DNA of 64,000 bases from Phycisphaerales bacterium (lineage in GTDB: Bacteria > Planctomycetota > Phycisphaerae > Phycisphaerales > SM1A02): positions 1 through 64,000 of the forward strand of contig SIAD01000002.1 of assembly GCA_009691915.1 (NCBI GenBank). The letters run 5' to 3'. Position 1 is the first letter of the stretch, and each line of letters opens with the position of its first letter. Below the pieces are notes generated by a model that saw nothing but the letters and a program-made list of their open reading frames with translations, was not told where the DNA came from and made no database searches. Of this stretch, positions 5,640 to 60,283 are shown piece by piece. A program made the position numbers and the translations under genes.

Positions 5640-6629
5640 ATGCTCCCCATCGCTCGAACGGTGACCGTGGTGTTTGGCTGCTCGGTCGTCCTAGCCATCA
5701 TCGGGTGCAAGTCGCCCCCCGGGACCCCTCAGGGATCGTCGTGGGCCGATGTGCTGGAACGAAGCCCAGACCCAGCGATCGTGAGTGATGCCGCACTCAG
5801 AGCGCGCATCGCCGGGACTGGACTCCCGTGGCGTGTGCGCGATCGCGCCAGCGGCATTGAGATGCTGCTCGTTCCACCTGGAGACTTTGTGATGGGGATG
5901 AGCCTGGGTGATCTTGAGTCGATGGATGATGAGCGCCCGGCGCATGCGGTCACCATCTCCAAGCCGTTCTATCTGGGTCGCTACGAGGTGACCCAAGCGG
6001 AGTGGATCTCGGTCATGGGATACAACCCGAGTTACTTTCAGGAGGCCAACTACTCGGTCATTGTGAGTGCCGATCAGGAGGCGCGTGTCGTTGAGCTCGT
6101 CGCGTTGGGGCACACGGACGGCGAGGCGCGGGCGCAGGCTCAGACGGGCGAACTAGTCGAGAGTGATGCCCGGCTCTGGCCGCTCGAGACGGTGACCCCA
6201 TCGGCTGTCGAGCCGTTCCTGCGCAAGACTGGATTGCGACTGCCGACGGAAGCGGAGTGGGAGTTCGCCTGCCGCGCGGGCCTCAGACAGCCGAGATACG
6301 GTGAACTCGATGCCATCGGTTGGTACACCGGCAATTCCGGAGGTCGGACGCATGTCGTCGGCGCGAAACCCGCCAATCCGCTGGGGTTCTCCGACATGAT
6401 CGGAAATGTGTGGGAGTGGTGCTCCGATTGGTACGGGCCGGAGTACTACGACGACTGCGGTGCCGGAGTGGTCGACCCGACGGGCCCGGCCGAGGGCGAC
6501 TTCGGCATAGCGCGTGGGGGGTCGTGGGACCATGTCCCGGCCAATTGCCGTTCGTCGTACCGCGAGAATCACTTCATGACCGACCCGCGAATCACAGACT
6601 TCGGCTTCCGCGCCGCGAGGAACCCCTGA
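5640..6629 (+). CDS. FGE-sulfatase-fold lipoprotein, paralogue 1
   Basis: The 329-residue protein starts with a lipoprotein signal ending in 'LAIIGC' (Cys23), so it is probably membrane-anchored. The rest is a formylglycine-generating-enzyme (SUMF1/FGE-sulfatase) fold: 'MLLVPPGDFVMGMS', 'YLGRYEVTQAEW', 'LRLPTEAEWEFACRAG', 'DMIGNVWEWCSDWYGPEYY', 'ARGGSWDHVPANCRSSYR' and the final 'DFGFRAARNP'. About 55 residues are inserted between 'NPSYFQ' and the 'LPTEAEW' block compared with typical members. Only the second of the two cysteines used by true formylglycine-generating enzymes is present, so an oxidase role is unlikely. Many bacterial members of this fold bind ligands or act in other ways. The start is 6 bases after TAGGCT. 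One base separates its stop from the next gene, a paralogue. Confidence 0.8.
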   Translation: MLPIARTVTVVFGCSVVLAIIGCKSPPGTPQGSSWADVLERSPDPAIVSDAALRARIAGTGLPWRVRDRASGIEMLLVPPGDFVMGMSLGDLESMDDERPAHAVTISKPFYLGRYEVTQAEWISVMGYNPSYFQEANYSVIVSADQEARVVELVALGHTDGEARAQAQTGELVESDARLWPLETVTPSAVEPFLRKTGLRLPTEAEWEFACRAGLRQPRYGELDAIGWYTGNSGGRTHVVGAKPANPLGFSDMIGNVWEWCSDWYGPEYYDDCGAGVVDPTGPAEGDFGIARGGSWDHVPANCRSSYRENHFMTDPRITDFGFRAARNP

Positions 6630-6630
6630 G

Positions 6631-7677
6631 ATGACACTCATGATTTCAGCCGTCGCGTTCGTTCTTCCACTCTGGTTGGCCGCCACGCCGCAGCAGGCGC
6701 CGCCGACCACCGCTCCTGCGCCCGAGCAGACGAGCGTCTGGATGAGTTCCGAGGAGCGGGCCGCGACCGCGCTGGCCGTCCGCATGGCATGGGCAGAAGT
6801 CATCGAAGCCATAGTCGATCCCAAGATTGTGTCGGATCCGGCATTGGCCGCAGCGATCAGCAGAACAGGACTTCCATGGCGAGTGCGAGACACGGCGACC
6901 GGAATCGAGATGCTTCTCGTGCCGCCTGGTCAGTTCAACATGGGGATGAGCGTCGGTGACGCCCTTGCCAACGGCGACGAGCGGCCGGTGCACGAAGTCA
7001 TCATCACCCGCCCGTTCTATCTCGGCCGCACGGAGGTCACGCAGTCCCAGTGGACACGCATGATGGGTTCGAACCCGAGTTACTTTCAGGATGTGAACTT
7101 CCAGCCGATGTCGGACAGCGAGCGCGTGGCGAAGCTCGAGAAAATGGTGAGTGGAGGATTCACTCGACAGCAAGCCGAGGCCAGACTCGGTGCGCAGATT
7201 CTCGCGCCGATCTCGACGGCCAACTGGCCAGTGGACACACTCACTTGGGAGGACCTGCAGATTTTCACTGTGAAGACAGGTCTCAGGCTTCCGACCGAGG
7301 CGGAGTGGGAGTACGCGTGTCGTGCGGGTTCGACTGAGCCAACCTACGGTGCACTTGATCAGGTCGCGTGGACAACACTGAACGCGCAGGAGCGGACACA
7401 TCCCGTGGGCGCCAAGCTTCCGAACGGTCTGGGCTTCTACGACATGATCGGCAATGTGTGGGAGTGGACCAACGACTGGTACGCCGCCGACTACTACAAG
7501 GCGTGTGAGTTTGGCGCGACTGATCCCCGCGGGGCGGGATCCAACACCTTTCGAGTTCTGCGCGGCGGGTCGTGGGACTACGACGCGCGCAGTTGTCGGG
7601 CGTCGTTTCGCCTCAACTACTTCCTCGGGGATCCACGGATCACGGATTTTGGAATGAGAGTTGCTCGCACACCGTGA
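6631..7677 (+). CDS. FGE-sulfatase-fold exported protein, paralogue 2
   Basis: This 348-residue tandem paralogue shares the same order of motifs as the gene before it: 'MLLVPPGQFNMGMSVGD', 'YLGRTEVTQSQW', 'SNPSYFQ', 'LRLPTEAEWEYACRAG', 'DMIGNVWEWTNDWY', 'LRGGSWDYDARSCRASFR' and 'DPRITDFGMRVARTP'. It has a signal peptide (about residues 1-20) but no lipobox, so it is probably periplasmic rather than anchored. It also has the insert after 'NPSYFQ' and lacks the first catalytic cysteine. The one-base gap to the upstream stop and five-base gap to the porin start suggest one three-gene operon: lipoprotein, soluble paralogue, porin. I infer envelope binding or processing linked to the porin; the ligand is unknown. 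Confidence 0.8.
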   Translation: MTLMISAVAFVLPLWLAATPQQAPPTTAPAPEQTSVWMSSEERAATALAVRMAWAEVIEAIVDPKIVSDPALAAAISRTGLPWRVRDTATGIEMLLVPPGQFNMGMSVGDALANGDERPVHEVIITRPFYLGRTEVTQSQWTRMMGSNPSYFQDVNFQPMSDSERVAKLEKMVSGGFTRQQAEARLGAQILAPISTANWPVDTLTWEDLQIFTVKTGLRLPTEAEWEYACRAGSTEPTYGALDQVAWTTLNAQERTHPVGAKLPNGLGFYDMIGNVWEWTNDWYAADYYKACEFGATDPRGAGSNTFRVLRGGSWDYDARSCRASFRLNYFLGDPRITDFGMRVARTP

Positions 7678-9195: not shown

Positions 9196-10167
9196 TCACC
9201 GGATCGGGGTTACTTCGTAGGCTCGCGTGCGAAAGTCCTTCCACGCATCGCCTATCTCTCCGAGGTCCGTCAGGTTTCCGTCGTGCAGGCGATCCTCCGC
9301 TGCCGCCTCTGCCAGTACAAAGACCAGACCATCGTGCGTGACCGTCTCGTCGCCCGTCTGGGCTTCGACGCGGACTCCGACGAGCGCGTGCCCCGTTCCA
9401 TCGCGCGCCTTGAGAGTGACGATGACCGTGTCTGCGATCGCCCGCGACCGAATGAACGCCGCCATGAGCGCTGACTTGGAATCGCAGTCGCCGCCCTTGA
9501 GGAGCGTAGTCAGGGGTGCGCGCATTCCACAGCGGTCCTTGCCGTCGGGAAGATCACCCACGGGCTCGTAGGGGATCGACTGAATGAAACGGAAGATCGC
9601 GGCGACCTTGTCACGCTGCGTGGCGACCCGCGGCGCATGGCTCTCCTTCAGTACCCGGTCGGTCTCCTTGAGGATGCTCGCGGCGATCGGGGCCACCTCC
9701 CTGCGGCAACCATCGACAAGCCATTGGAAGTCGACTTCAAGCTTGCCGAAGCTCCCATCGGAACTTGAGACAACCCGCATCCCGTGATGCGCGAGCTTTC
9801 GGTCTTCAAGCCGCTGGCACTTCGCCTTCTCCTCGGGGCTCGTGAATGAGAATTGGATGTCCTCCAGTGGCGCACCGAAGTGCCGTTCGATGGATTGCGC
9901 TCTCGCTTCGTCAAGAGTTGCGGAGATCGAGAAGCGCCACGGTGTGACGGACGGATCCCGGTAACGGACACCACCCCGCTTCGTGATCGCTGGCGTCGCG
10001 TCGAGCCAGCTGTAGTCGCGTGTCACCGGCTTCGGCGCGACCTTCGCGGCCTCGCTCGGAGTCTTGAGCCAGGCGTTGAATCTCGCGTTGTAGTCCTGGG
10101 ATGCGGGCCCATGACCATCGCCCGCAAACATGGCCGAAGCGACTAGGAAGGCAACACCCAGAGGCAC
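9196..10167 (-). CDS. exported transglutaminase-like cysteine protein
   Basis: The 323-residue protein has a signal peptide (about residues 1-15, cleavage near 'SAMFA'). A domain of about 100 residues near the C-terminus has transglutaminase-like features: 'VAAIFRFIQSIPYEP', catalytic-type Cys in 'LLKGGDCDSKSALMAAFIR', and His in 'GTGHALVGVRV'. The likely third residue is the acidic position near 'VFVLAEAAAEDRL'. The N-terminal part is not recognised. Such proteins can be peptidases, cross-linkers or inactive binders. The start is GTG 10167, not the upstream TTG or GTG (10191, 10188), because TACGAT ends exactly 6 bases before it and the signal peptide begins there. Its stop faces the porin gene across 19 bases. 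Confidence 0.7.
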   Translation of the reverse strand: MPLGVAFLVASAMFAGDGHGPASQDYNARFNAWLKTPSEAAKVAPKPVTRDYSWLDATPAITKRGGVRYRDPSVTPWRFSISATLDEARAQSIERHFGAPLEDIQFSFTSPEEKAKCQRLEDRKLAHHGMRVVSSSDGSFGKLEVDFQWLVDGCRREVAPIAASILKETDRVLKESHAPRVATQRDKVAAIFRFIQSIPYEPVGDLPDGKDRCGMRAPLTTLLKGGDCDSKSALMAAFIRSRAIADTVIVTLKARDGTGHALVGVRVEAQTGDETVTHDGLVFVLAEAAAEDRLHDGNLTDLGEIGDAWKDFRTRAYEVTPIR

Positions 10168-10201: not shown

Positions 10202-10525
10202 CTACCCCTCAGAGGCGGTCTGTTCGCTCGCCCGCGCCAGGCAGCGGTGCATCTCGGCGCGCACTTCGTCCGCAGAGGTGTTCACTCCGCGCGCCTTCAG
10301 GTCGCCGAGGACCTTCTCCTCCACATCGGCGTCACCGACTGCTTTGAGATCGTGGGCCTGAAGTTCCGCCGCGTACTCGGCGACCTGGGCAGGGGTCATT
10401 CCCACCTTCTCGCCGACCCACTGAGCGAGCAACTTGTTCCGCCGCGCCTGCGCCCGGAACCGTTTCTCAGCGTCAAACGCAAACTGCTTCTCAAACCCCT
10501 CTTCGCGTTGCGAGAATCCTGACAT
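10202..10525 (-). CDS. F1-ATPase inhibitor zeta-like protein (DUF1476)
   Basis: This 107-residue soluble helical protein matches the alphaproteobacterial zeta subunit/DUF1476 family along its length. Motifs seen are 'REEGFEKQFAFD' at the N-terminus, 'FRAQARRNKLLAQWVGEK', 'YAAELQAHDLKAVGDADV' and 'KARGVNTSADEVRAEM'. In Paracoccus the N-terminal segment enters F1 and blocks ATP hydrolysis. Here the equivalent segment is present, so a similar role is plausible but inferred. A good ribosome-binding site (AAGGAG, 7 bases before ATG) sets the start. The gene stands alone, divergent from an MgtE-like gene and about 45 kb from the ATP synthase cluster in this window. The family is best known from Alphaproteobacteria, so its presence here is unusual. 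Confidence 0.85.
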   Translation of the reverse strand: MSGFSQREEGFEKQFAFDAEKRFRAQARRNKLLAQWVGEKVGMTPAQVAEYAAELQAHDLKAVGDADVEEKVLGDLKARGVNTSADEVRAEMHRCLARASEQTASEG

Positions 10526-10546: not shown

Positions 10547-11602
10547 ATGCTAGCGCTGCCGCTGATCAGTGTGAGCTCCGACGACTCAACGCGGGACTAT
10601 TCCGAAGTGACGATCCGTGACATGATGGAGCCGATTCACGCGGCCTTCGGGAAGTCGGAAACTGTCGAAACTGCCGTGGCGGAGATCCGAGGGATGGTTC
10701 GAAGAGTTTTTGTCACCTACGCCTTCGTGGTCGACCAGGCGGGGCGCCTCGAAGGGGTCGTCACGATGCGCGACCTCCTTCTGGCCGATTCGAAGGCGAC
10801 ACTCGAGAGCGTGATGCTCAAGGAACCATTCTGGGTCCCCGCCGATATCCAGCTCATGGAGGCGATGAGGCTGGTTCTCAAGCGGCACTACCCGATCTAT
10901 CCGGTGTGCACTCCGGACAGGACGCTCGTCGGACTCATTCGGGGGCCGGCGATGTTTGAGGCTCAGGCGATTGAGATCAGCGCCCAAGCGGGATCCATGG
11001 TTGGAGTCACCAAGGAAGAGCGACTCTCAACCCCTTGGCTGTGGAGCCTCCGCTACCGCCATCCGTGGCTCCAACTCAACCTCTTGACGGCCTTCCTCGC
11101 GGCAGCTGTCGTGGCGGCATTCCAGGAGACGCTCAATCAGCTGGTGATCCTTGCCGTCTTTCTTCCAGTCCTTGCAGGTCAATCGGGCAATACCGGCTGC
11201 CAGGCACTGGCGATCGCGTTGCGCGGAATGACACTCGGGGAGTTGAAGCCGGGGTTTGAACGGTCTCTGGTCATGAAAGAGGGACTTCTCGGACTCCTCA
11301 ACGGGGCTCTTGTAGGAGTCTCCGCGGGAATCGGCATGTACATCTTTGCCCGCATGCAGCCCACTCCCGAGGATCCGATGGTTCTCGCACCCGCGGGGCA
11401 GGCGTTCATCCTCGGTGTCGTGACCTTCACCGCGATGATCGGAAGCTGCATGGTGAGCGGACTCGCCGGAGCACTCATTCCGATGACCCTCAAGCGCCTT
11501 GGCGCCGATCCTTGCACAGCCTCGAGCATTTTCCTGACGACTGCGACCGATGTGGCGAGCATGGGGATCTTCCTCGGTCTGGCGACGCTAGTCTTCAGGT
11601 AG
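10547..11602 (+). CDS. mgtE: MgtE-type magnesium transporter, short form with CBS pair
   Basis: The 351-residue protein has two CBS modules (about residues 22-145, 'IRDMMEPIHAAFGKSETV', 'FVVDQAGRLEGVVTMRDLL', 'PIYPVCTPDRTLVGLI'). Five predicted membrane helices of the MgtE channel domain follow. 'LAGQSGNTGCQALAIALRG' is the family's signature loop, and 'SSIFLTTATDVASMGIFLG' carries the conserved pore aspartate. The usual N-terminal MgtE-N superhelical domain (about 120 residues) is missing, so Mg2+ sensing would rest on the CBS pair. It imports Mg2+ or a related divalent cation across the inner membrane. The gene is divergent from the zeta-like gene across 21 bases and ends before a strong hairpin terminator. 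Confidence 0.85.
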   Translation: MLALPLISVSSDDSTRDYSEVTIRDMMEPIHAAFGKSETVETAVAEIRGMVRRVFVTYAFVVDQAGRLEGVVTMRDLLLADSKATLESVMLKEPFWVPADIQLMEAMRLVLKRHYPIYPVCTPDRTLVGLIRGPAMFEAQAIEISAQAGSMVGVTKEERLSTPWLWSLRYRHPWLQLNLLTAFLAAAVVAAFQETLNQLVILAVFLPVLAGQSGNTGCQALAIALRGMTLGELKPGFERSLVMKEGLLGLLNGALVGVSAGIGMYIFARMQPTPEDPMVLAPAGQAFILGVVTFTAMIGSCMVSGLAGALIPMTLKRLGADPCTASSIFLTTATDVASMGIFLGLATLVFR

Positions 11603-11680: not shown

Positions 11681-11920
11681 TCAGGTCGTCGAGGACTTCT
11701 TGGCGAACACCGCAACAATCACGAGCAGCGCGATCAGGCCAACGAATCCGCCGTTACCCAGTTGCGTCACAAAGCCCATGAGGTTGCTGGTGATGCCAGC
11801 GAAGAATCCGACATTGTTCGAACCAAAGATGATCTGCACCAGAACTCCTAGAGCGATGAACAGCAACATGATGTCCATGAGTTCGCGTGCCCAACCCTTG
11901 ATCCATGTGAATGCCTGCAT
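11681..11920 (-). CDS. small membrane protein, two transmembrane helices
   Basis: The 79-residue protein has an amphipathic N-terminus ('MQAFTWIKGWARELMDIML'), a first membrane helix (about 14-32) and a second (about 50-70, 'GFVGLIALLVIVAVFA'). It ends in a short basic tail. I do not recognise a family. The start at 11920 is fixed by AAGGAG about 10 bases upstream; a longer in-frame start at 11974 lacks one. It is a single-gene unit bounded by the hairpin at 11628-11652. The 229 bases upstream, to the ABC gene at 12150, hold no other gene that I can see. Confidence 0.65.
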   Translation of the reverse strand: MQAFTWIKGWARELMDIMLLFIALGVLVQIIFGSNNVGFFAGITSNLMGFVTQLGNGGFVGLIALLVIVAVFAKKSSTT

Positions 11921-12128
11921 TTTTGATAGCTCCTTGTGCGTCCGATCCTGAGCACTCTGCACGATGCAGTGCACCCGAGTGTGTTATCGGCAGGACAACA
12001 GAGTTTTCGACAATCTGACGGAAATGACCGGGCCAGTTGACCGTTTGCCGGACACGCGGCCACCGGCATAAATCATCGTTTTTGAGAAACCATCAAGGTT
12101 TTTCCACTCACGACCGCGGAAGCGGCAT

Positions 12129-56125: not shown

Positions 56126-57506
<1,381 letters not shown>

Positions 57507-57576
57507 TCTGACCAAGCGGGTGGCCGACGGCGGAGTACTTCCGCTCCGGTCCCCAAGCCTGCAAGGAGAGTTCCGC

Positions 57577-58089
57577 ATGCTGCTTGCCTCTGCCGATCCT
57601 ATGGCCTTCAACTGGCTTCCGTTCGTCACGACCATCGTGGTGTTCGGGATCGTGTTCTTCGTTCTCGCGTTTAGCGTTTGGCCCAAGATCGACAAGGGGC
57701 TCGACGAGCGGTCACAGAAAATCCTGCACGAGATCGAGTCGGCCGAGGCCGCGCGCGTCACGGCCGCGGCGAAGCAGAAAGAGTTTGAGCAGAAGTTGGC
57801 GGAAGGGCTGGAGCAGTCGGCGCGGATGATTCGTGAGGCCAAGGCCGAGGCCGTTCGCTTGGGGGACGAAATCCGTGCGAGGAGTGAAGCCGACCTCTCG
57901 GAGCGCGCCCGGCGCGCGGCGGAAGAGATCGACGGAGCCCGTCGACTCGCCGTCTCAGAGCTCGAGGCCCACGCCGCCGCGCTCGCTGTGGCGATTGCGG
58001 GTCGAATTCTCCAGCGCGAGTTGAAGCCAGCTGACAATCAGCGCATCGTCGAGGAGTCGCTCGCGGGCATGTCCGCGAAGCGCGGGTGA
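57577..58089 (+). CDS. atpF: ATP synthase F0 subunit b
   Basis: The 170-residue subunit has one N-terminal membrane helix (about residues 12-32, 'TTIVVFGIVFFVLAFSVW'). A long charged coiled coil then forms the peripheral stalk ('KILHEIESAEAARVTAAAK' and onwards). This is the normal b-subunit form. ATG 57577 is chosen over GTG 57520 because GGAG lies 8 bases before it. It is followed by atpH after 7 bases. Confidence 0.92.
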   Translation: MLLASADPMAFNWLPFVTTIVVFGIVFFVLAFSVWPKIDKGLDERSQKILHEIESAEAARVTAAAKQKEFEQKLAEGLEQSARMIREAKAEAVRLGDEIRARSEADLSERARRAAEEIDGARRLAVSELEAHAAALAVAIAGRILQRELKPADNQRIVEESLAGMSAKRG

Positions 58090-58096
58090 TTCAGCG

Positions 58097-58696
58097 ATGC
58101 CCAGCACCGATCAGGTCGCCAGCGTCTATGCCGACGCGCTCCTCGAGCTCGCCATCCACGAGGGTGGCAATTCAAGGGCGCAAGAGTTGGGCGATGAGCT
58201 TGGTGAACTGTGCGAAGTGATCATCGCGAACAAGGCTGTCGTCCGCTTCCTGTCCTCACCGGTCGTTGACCGCGCCGAGCGCAGCGCGGTGATCGAACGC
58301 ACATTCAAGGGGCGCATCAGTGACACGCTCTACCGCTTCGTCCTCACGGTTGACCGCAATGGCCGCCTCGGGCACCTCGTTGCGATGGAGCAGTGCTACG
58401 ACGCGCTGTTGCAGAAACTTTTCGGCAAGACCGAAGTGGATGTGTACACCGTCGATGGCAAGTCACTCGACGCCTCGACGGAGGAGCTTCTGCGAGAGAG
58501 GGTCAAGGCCACGGCGGGCGAGGATGCGGTCTTCCACTACTACGCCGATGGGTCAATGATCGGCGGGATCAAGCTCCAGATCGGGGACCAGCTTGTCGAT
58601 GGATCGATCGCCACGCGGCTGAGGCGGCTGCAGGCCGCGATTGTTGAGTCCGGCGGCGCCTCGGTGCGCCGCGACCCCACGCGATTCATCGGCTGA
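58097..58696 (+). CDS. atpH: ATP synthase F1 subunit delta
   Basis: The 199-residue subunit links the peripheral stalk to the top of F1. 'VASVYADALLELAIHEGG' (N-terminal helix), 'SSPVVDRAERSAVIERTFKG' and the C-terminal 'GGIKLQIGDQLVDGSIATRL' are standard delta/OSCP motifs. Length is slightly longer than the usual 180. It is followed after 30 bases by atpA. Confidence 0.92.
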   Translation: MPSTDQVASVYADALLELAIHEGGNSRAQELGDELGELCEVIIANKAVVRFLSSPVVDRAERSAVIERTFKGRISDTLYRFVLTVDRNGRLGHLVAMEQCYDALLQKLFGKTEVDVYTVDGKSLDASTEELLRERVKATAGEDAVFHYYADGSMIGGIKLQIGDQLVDGSIATRLRRLQAAIVESGGASVRRDPTRFIG

Positions 58697-58726: not shown

Positions 58727-60283
58727 ATGAAAATCAAGACCGACGAAATCGCATCAATCATCCGCAAGGAAATCGAGCAGTTTGGCACCACACTGGAGGT
58801 CAGCGATGTCGGCCAGGTAGTCGAGGTCGGCGACGGGATTGCCCGTGTGTATGGCCTCTCCAAGGTGATGGCTGGCGAGCTCCTCGAGTTCGAGACGGTC
58901 GAAGGCAGCGTCACAGGTCAGGCGATGAATCTCGAGGCTGACACCGTCGGAGTTGCACTCTTCGGAAACTCGACGGGCGTGCGTGAGGGTGACACGGTGC
59001 GATCGACCGGTCGCCTGCTGGAAGTCCCAGTGGGACCGCAGCTCCTCGGACGCGTCGTCGACTCGCTCGGAAGACCGCTTGACGGCGGTGCGCCCATCGG
59101 GGCGACGGAGACCGGCAAGGTCGACATCGTCGCGCCCGGGATTTCCGCTCGCCAGCCGGTGAAGGAACCGATGCAGTTCGGCATCAAGGCAGTCGATTCG
59201 ATGATCCCCGTCGGCCGCGGACAGCGCGAACTCGTCATCGGTGATCGCAAGACCGGAAAGACCGCGATCTGCCTGGACTGCATCATCAATCAGAAGCAGT
59301 ACTGGGGCACGCCCGATGCGGTCGTGTGCATTTATGTCGCCGTCGGCCAGAAAGACTCGACGGTCGCCGCGGTTGTGGACACGCTCCGAACGCATGGCGC
59401 GATGGACTACACCATCGTTGTCAATGCGGGAGCGGCGTCGTCCGCCCCAATGCAGTACATCGCCCCGTACTCAGGGTGCGCGATGGGTGAGTACTTCATG
59501 TGGAAGGGGAAAGACCCCAGCTACACCGGACCGAAGCATGTCCTGTGTGTCTACGACGACCTCTCCAAGCAGGCGGTCGCCTACCGCGAACTCTCCCTGT
59601 TGCTGCGACGGCCTCCCGGGCGCGAGGCGTATCCAGGCGATGTCTTCTACCTGCACTCCCGCCTCCTCGAGCGGTCCACAAAACTCTCCAAGGAGAATGG
59701 CGGCGGATCGATTACCGCACTGCCGATCATCGAGACCCAGGAAGGCGATGTCTCCGCGTACATCCCCACGAATGTGATTTCGATCACCGACGGACAGATC
59801 TACCTTCAGCCGGAACTCTTCTCGGCGGGTGTGCGTCCCGCGGTGAATGTTGGAATCTCCGTGAGCCGTGTCGGCGGTGCGGCCCAGATCAAGGCGATGA
59901 AGGAGGTTGCCGGATCTCTGCGTCTCGATCTGGCGGCGTATCGCGAACTCGAGGCATTCGCGCAGTTGGGCACCGAACTCGATCGCGCCAGCACCAGACA
60001 GCTCGAGCGCGGCGCCCGCATGGTCGAACTTCTCAAGCAGGGGCAGTACACGCCGTTCGACACGATCGACCAGTGCATCTCGATCTTCTCGGCCTCGAAG
60101 GGCCTGCTCGACGATGTTGCCAAGGACAAGGTGCCGCAGTTTGAGCGCGACCTGCTGGATGCCATGCGGGGACCGCACAAGGCACTGCGAGCCGAACTAG
60201 TCGCCGCGAAGTCGTTCAAGGGCCTTGAGGACAAGTTCATCGCTGCGATCAAGTCCTTCAAGGCGTCCTGGAAGGCCGCGTGA
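58727..60283 (+). CDS. atpA: ATP synthase F1 subunit alpha
   Basis: The 518-residue subunit has the nucleotide-binding P-loop 'GDRKTGKTA', '[20 protein letters not shown]' with the following '[10 protein letters not shown]', and the N-terminal beta barrel ('[20 protein letters not shown]'). AAGGA 7 bases before the ATG gives strong translation. Normally atpG, atpD and atpC follow; here the next gene is an SDR epimerase that overlaps the stop by GTGA, so the cluster is truncated. Confidence 0.96.

Follow-up and report, generated by a model that had tools for sequence, protein, structure and literature searches.

The zeta subunit of Paracoccus denitrificans (structures 2ll0, 2mdz and 5dn6) is a helical-bundle protein encoded outside the ATP synthase operon, and its N-terminal 14 or 17 residues plug F1 (PMC10469736, PMC9317440). 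Two proteins of similar action are described in the second of these sources. Mitochondrial IF1 acts analogously, inserting its N-terminal helix at the F1 interface that zeta uses, but is held to be non-homologous to zeta, while in bacteria hydrolysis is blocked by the C-terminal domain of the epsilon subunit, which in Alphaproteobacteria is reported to have lost its inhibitory function and its ATP motif (PMC9317440). Membership in the zeta family does not prove inhibition, since the zeta of Sinorhizobium meliloti (7vkv) is reported to be folded in solution and to leave its own F1 uninhibited (PMC10469736). In both papers, zeta is called essentially exclusive to Alphaproteobacteria, and its loss enters the argument on the origin of mitochondria and of IF1. 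Here we describe a full-length zeta gene under selection in another phylum; the family is thus not confined to Alphaproteobacteria.

The gene occupies positions 10202–10525 on the reverse strand of the window, the whole 64,000-nucleotide stretch of DNA analysed here, and encodes 107 amino acids. It starts with ATG, and a Shine-Dalgarno-like AAGGAG lies 7 bases upstream. An earlier note, made from the letters of the window, had matched the product to DUF1476/zeta from N- to C-terminus, and the profile search bears this out: PF07345 is matched at E 8.6e-31 with 106.8 bits (hmmscan, cut-off 25), profile positions 1–102 of 102 are covered, and the reading frame has no internal stop. The search did not place the protein in another family. 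Its sole NCBIfam match, to phasin (TIGR02809), is weak (14.1 bits against a cut-off of 65.85) and was rejected, and neither of its two Pfam hits with E ≤1 is to an IF1 family. Against PDB sequences, phmmer returned 7vkv (8e-16), 2ll0/2mdz/5dn6 (2.7e-14) and 2kzc (4.4e-11), and after these three zeta-family sequences the next lies at E 0.94.

An AF2 model, for which 42 sequences of the window and the collected loci were aligned, has a pLDDT of 91 and a long N-terminal helix (residues 2–41) followed by helices at 45–59, 66–78 and 85–106; over the first ten residues pLDDT is 76, so the N-terminal tip is modelled less confidently. Foldseek ranks the three zeta structures first at E ≤1e-3, with rank 4 at 1.6. 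VIA-align gives Z 12.6 and an rmsd of 1.7 over 85 residues for 2kzc, Z 9.5 over 97 residues for 2ll0 and Z 8.8 over 88 for 7vkv, with the next row at 6.8, values to be read in the knowledge that Z under about 13 may reflect only the common arrangement of helical bundles. Because such scores are weak for this kind of fold, the homology is carried by the sequence comparison. By profile, full-length match and predicted fold, the window protein is a true and complete zeta subunit.

For residue comparisons we assumed 19 residues as the bound of the Paracoccus inhibitory segment. In the window protein these are encoded at 10469–10525 on the reverse strand and cover the first 14 or 17 residues named in the papers (PMC9317440, PMC10469736), so the segment that plugs F1 in Paracoccus is included, as had been proposed. 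Across 53 planctomycete and 101 alphaproteobacterial zeta sequences, the majority residue is identical in the two sets at 16/19 positions in residues 1–19 and at only 17/32 in residues 76–107; the same N- to C-terminal conservation gradient is reported for alphaproteobacterial zeta (PMC9317440). Seven residues (F4, R7, E12, K14, F23, R29 and W36) each form the majority in both sets, at a frequency of 83% or more. Of the seven, only K14 is missing from the window protein, which has Q in its place; over the first 19 positions this protein agrees with the alphaproteobacterial majority at 11 and departs from it at 8.

These residues bear in both directions on the reading that the window zeta, like that of Sinorhizobium, has ceased to inhibit the F1 of its own cell and persists because of some other role, such as F1 stability or nucleotide binding. 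A non-inhibitory zeta of this kind does exist in S. meliloti (PMC10469736). The window protein is homologous to it in sequence (E 8e-16), matches its fold and shares F11 with it, and is without the conserved K14. On the other side, the window protein keeps F4 where the S. meliloti protein has M4, and the N-terminal segment is about as conserved in planctomycetes as in Alphaproteobacteria (mean majority frequency over residues 1–19 of 0.63 versus 0.66). We return to this reading with the F1 and epsilon comparisons below.

The host had been taken for a planctomycete, and the relatives of the gene agree: the close records L034 and L064 are titled Phycisphaerales, an order of Planctomycetota, and the L034 zeta falls among those of the window's genus in the zeta tree. 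Among the best 80 contig matches to zeta, these two group with the window's relatives together with L032 and L035 (both titled uncultured bacterium) and L033 (titled Singulisphaera). A further 74 are named after Alphaproteobacteria or simply "Proteobacteria", and the remaining one, L105, bears the title Anaerolineae. The title of the Singulisphaera record (CAMAXY010000043.1) looks wrong: its zeta protein is that of G473, a member of the window's genus.

The window's genome (G000) comprises 2.27 Mb in 34 contigs, and many related assemblies are in tens to hundreds of contigs, which leaves room for the idea that zeta sits on a contaminating alphaproteobacterial contig of a metagenome-assembled genome. 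Yet the single zeta gene of this genome lies on a contig of 258,696 bases, and the same contig encodes an F1 alpha subunit that shares 89% identity with a genus relative's and only 58–61% with those of 8 Alphaproteobacteria. The synteny around zeta recurs in genus relatives from other assemblies, and a one-contig genome of the order (G507) has zeta as well. On these four grounds we reject recent contamination, whose probability we regard as negligible.

Within the genus the gene has a conserved setting. Downstream, at 9196–10146 on the reverse strand, lies a gene that is weakly transglutaminase-like (below the Pfam cut-off) and that adjoins zeta in L032, L033 and L034 as well. On the other side a divergent gene at 10547–11602 on the forward strand encodes an MgtE-like CBS-domain transporter (PF01769, 90.7 bits), which is also found beside zeta in L017/L033, L026, L034, L122 and L123. 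In three genus members (L032, L021 and L124) tblastn gave no MgtE-like match between zeta and the next conserved gene; relative to the window, the transporter gene has been gained or lost there. That next gene, a small hydrophobic ORF at 11681–11926 on the reverse strand, is 81–90% identical over the matched stretch at 9 genus loci. Where a locus of the genus extends far enough, the conserved order runs transglutaminase-like gene, zeta, MgtE-like gene where present, small hydrophobic ORF, ABC ATPase and permease. Outside the genus, in L022, L035 and L064, only zeta itself was matched, and the neighbourhood is thus conserved only within the genus. Elsewhere in the window, 5640–6629 and 6631–7677 encode adjacent, similar proteins that by eye resemble the formylglycine-generating-enzyme (sulfatase-modifying) family.

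Within the genus, the median dN/dS of zeta is 0.159 (50 of 120 pairs with estimable dS), and pN/pS taken across all pairs has a median of 0.32. Likewise, dN is below dS in 12 more within-genus pairs drawn from the rest of the order, a divergent genus contributing two. Zeta is kept under purifying selection within the window's genus and in other genera. Conserved synteny, presence across relatives and low dN/dS together identify it as a resident and selected gene, and not a product of contamination or decay.

That the family is known mainly from Alphaproteobacteria was rightly stated in the earlier note, and the published accounts go further in calling it essentially exclusive to them (PMC9317440 and PMC10469736). 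A class sample of Alphaproteobacteria yielded zeta matches in 96/142 genomes. The corresponding sample of the window's phylum yielded 4 in 392, the window's own genome included, and all four belong to the window's order. Sampled more closely, again counting the window's own genome, the order has matches in 51/301 genomes and 14/147 genera, the one-contig genome among them; the family in 29/101 genomes and 13/45 genera, leaving 72 genomes without a match; and the genus in 15/17 genomes. The patchy spread within the family counts against the reading favoured below. Presence clusters by genus: zeta occurs in 13 genera where shuffling gives a mean of 22.5, and none of 10,000 shuffles is as low. 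A search of the openly licensed literature returned no paper on zeta in planctomycetes. These genomes extend a known family to a new host lineage, a finding modest in kind, yet a direct counterexample to the published exclusivity of zeta.

A further candidate outside Pseudomonadota, the Chloroflexota zeta suggested by L105 (JANQQD010000247.1), was rejected: its phylum sample has 44 matching genomes, and 10 of them recur in the alphaproteobacterial class sample. The title of that record looks wrong: its "Anaerolineae" genome groups with the Pseudomonadota samples. A search for carriage of zeta by phages gave no match. Plasmids carry zeta in 87 records from eleven genera, ten of which we take to be alphaproteobacterial.

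As to how the gene reached its present host, old inheritance and transfer had both been proposed, and the distribution supports the second and disfavours the first. Transfer from Alphaproteobacteria is favoured because zeta is found in one planctomycete order on the one hand and in most of a proteobacterial class on the other. Vertical descent from an ancestor shared by Proteobacteria and Planctomycetota would require loss nearly everywhere else. It draws on the diversity of the planctomycete sequences, which are 30–65% identical to the window protein, and on a single planctomycete clade being 11.6 log units worse without being rejected (AU p 0.374, 114-row set). The restriction of all four phylum matches to the window's order counts against it, as do 5 of 15 planctomycete genera (g7, g272, g282, g287 and g295) whose closest zeta outside the genus is alphaproteobacterial, by 2 to 5 identity points (59% versus 55% to another planctomycete genus in g7, 59% versus 54% in g282); the best match of the other ten lies in another planctomycete genus. 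We consider vertical descent very improbable.

A quick tree (159 rows, 107 columns) leaves 89 of its 156 inner branches open. The planctomycete zeta sequences fall into several clusters interspersed with alphaproteobacterial ones on a backbone without resolution. The tree requires the planctomycete label to change 6 times, against a mean of 46.8 in shuffles, and starred branches force 1 of these changes. For the careful tree, on the 114 rows used for the clade comparison, 24 rows that were long or odd and another 21 planctomycete rows were set aside. Zeta was probably acquired by Phycisphaerales from Alphaproteobacteria long ago, without F1 alpha and beta; one old transfer followed by much loss and a few separate transfers both fit.

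The window encodes ATP synthase subunits a (56126–57073; PF00119, 3.9e-44), c (within an ORF at 57024–57506, matched over residues 95–157 and with its true start probably inside; PF00137, 2e-18), b (57520–58089; PF00430, 2.5e-24), delta (58097–58696; PF00213, 7.9e-31) and alpha, part of the presumed zeta binding site (58727–60283; PF00006, 1.1e-75), all on the forward strand. The F1Fo genes are scattered: beta is on another contig (C5), and epsilon is on a third (C4) without beta beside it. The gene next to epsilon is, as we judge from its sequence, scpB.

An ATP synthase cluster 45 kb from zeta had been noted and taken to suggest control of ATP hydrolysis. The distance stands (45.6 kb, from the a subunit at 56126), but beta and epsilon are missing from the cluster, and neighbourhood makes a weak argument. 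Zeta, with unrelated genes beside it, lies apart from the operon at 48 kb from alpha, as it does in the genus relative G452. That distance is about 14 kb in G342, 17 kb in the one-contig G507 and 331 kb in G497, and in 9 further of the 14 zeta-positive genomes compared the two genes are on different contigs. Proximity is not generally conserved, and a functional linkage through the window's cluster is unsupported.

The window's alpha subunit is 70–89% identical to those of zeta-positive and zeta-negative Phycisphaerales alike, and 76–89% to those of both kinds within the family, fragments aside. Mean identity to Alphaproteobacteria is 57.1% for alpha in 13 zeta-positive genomes versus 56.6% in 7 zeta-negative ones, and 63.8% versus 64.1% for beta; the alpha comparison left out a fragment from G452 (L323) and a beta-type hit of G392 (L325). 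No alpha or beta column was found in which zeta-positive genomes are more alphaproteobacterial than zeta-negative ones by a difference of 0.6, and hence no trace of co-adaptation. Co-transfer of the F1 target with zeta is unsupported for alpha and beta, and since these subunits are no more alphaproteobacterial where zeta is present, those that zeta would meet are native.

We favour, with a probability of about 0.68, the reading that the window zeta was acquired long ago without F1 alpha and beta, has been kept by selection and works on the native F1 as it does in Paracoccus. In such a mechanism the C-terminal helical bundle would anchor zeta on the cell's own planctomycete F1, and the N-terminal segment of about 14–19 residues would turn helical and wedge into the alpha-beta-gamma interface, blocking rotation in the hydrolysis direction and allowing synthesis. 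On our analysis the protein most likely serves to keep the native F1 from hydrolysing ATP, and the control of ATP hydrolysis suggested earlier is plausible. The likeness to Paracoccus zeta extends to full-length homology, the inhibitory segment, the fold and a gene outside the operon; the differences are a planctomycete host, with mean identities of 57–64% between its F1 alpha and beta and the alphaproteobacterial subunits, and an inhibition that is predicted for the window protein.

The Sinorhizobium-like reading, in which zeta has ceased to inhibit, gains from the lack of a co-adaptation signature in alpha or beta and from the epsilon subunit, a protein distinct from zeta, whose C-terminal domain, the usual bacterial inhibitor, is present in these genomes. 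Judged by length, that domain is kept in 31/32 zeta-positive rows, 34/37 zeta-negative rows and 5/6 comparison rows, so its loss does not correlate with zeta presence. An I/LDxxRA-like motif occurs in none of the 32 zeta-positive rows, in 2 of the 37 zeta-negative ones and in 1 of the 6 comparison rows. The epsilon set had 81 rows, of which six were dropped, five as duplicates and one because a contig end truncated it. Two of the 32 zeta-positive rows repeat a genome (identity of the proteins shows L133 to be G473 and L135 to be G431) and two come from genomes with divergent zeta; the six comparison rows, used for beta as well, include L129, from a genome titled Anaerolineae. Weighed against the kept F4 and the conserved N-terminal segment, loss of inhibition seems to us unlikely, though it retains real weight beside the favoured reading of an inhibitor acting on native F1. 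In three g295 rows (L260, L289 and L290) and one of g5 (L291), epsilon has 86–98 residues and its C-terminal helical domain is wholly absent.

Planctomycete zeta lends itself, as a natural experiment, to asking whether the zeta mechanism depends on an F1 of alphaproteobacterial type. More tentatively, at somewhat less than even odds, zeta may be a transferable one-protein brake that entered Phycisphaerales alone, perhaps on several occasions, and acts on an F1 of non-alphaproteobacterial type; the proteins of one divergent genus would then have kept the N-terminal plug and rebuilt the middle. That genus, g285 (L029, L030 and L031, from genomes G438, G480 and G409), encodes zeta-like proteins scoring 36–39 bits. 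They largely keep the N-terminal pattern (GF, EKF, RFQ or similar) and have lost the ARRNKLLGxWAA stretch, and dN is below dS in the two pairs tested. The g285 protein is possibly a zeta with a rebuilt docking part.
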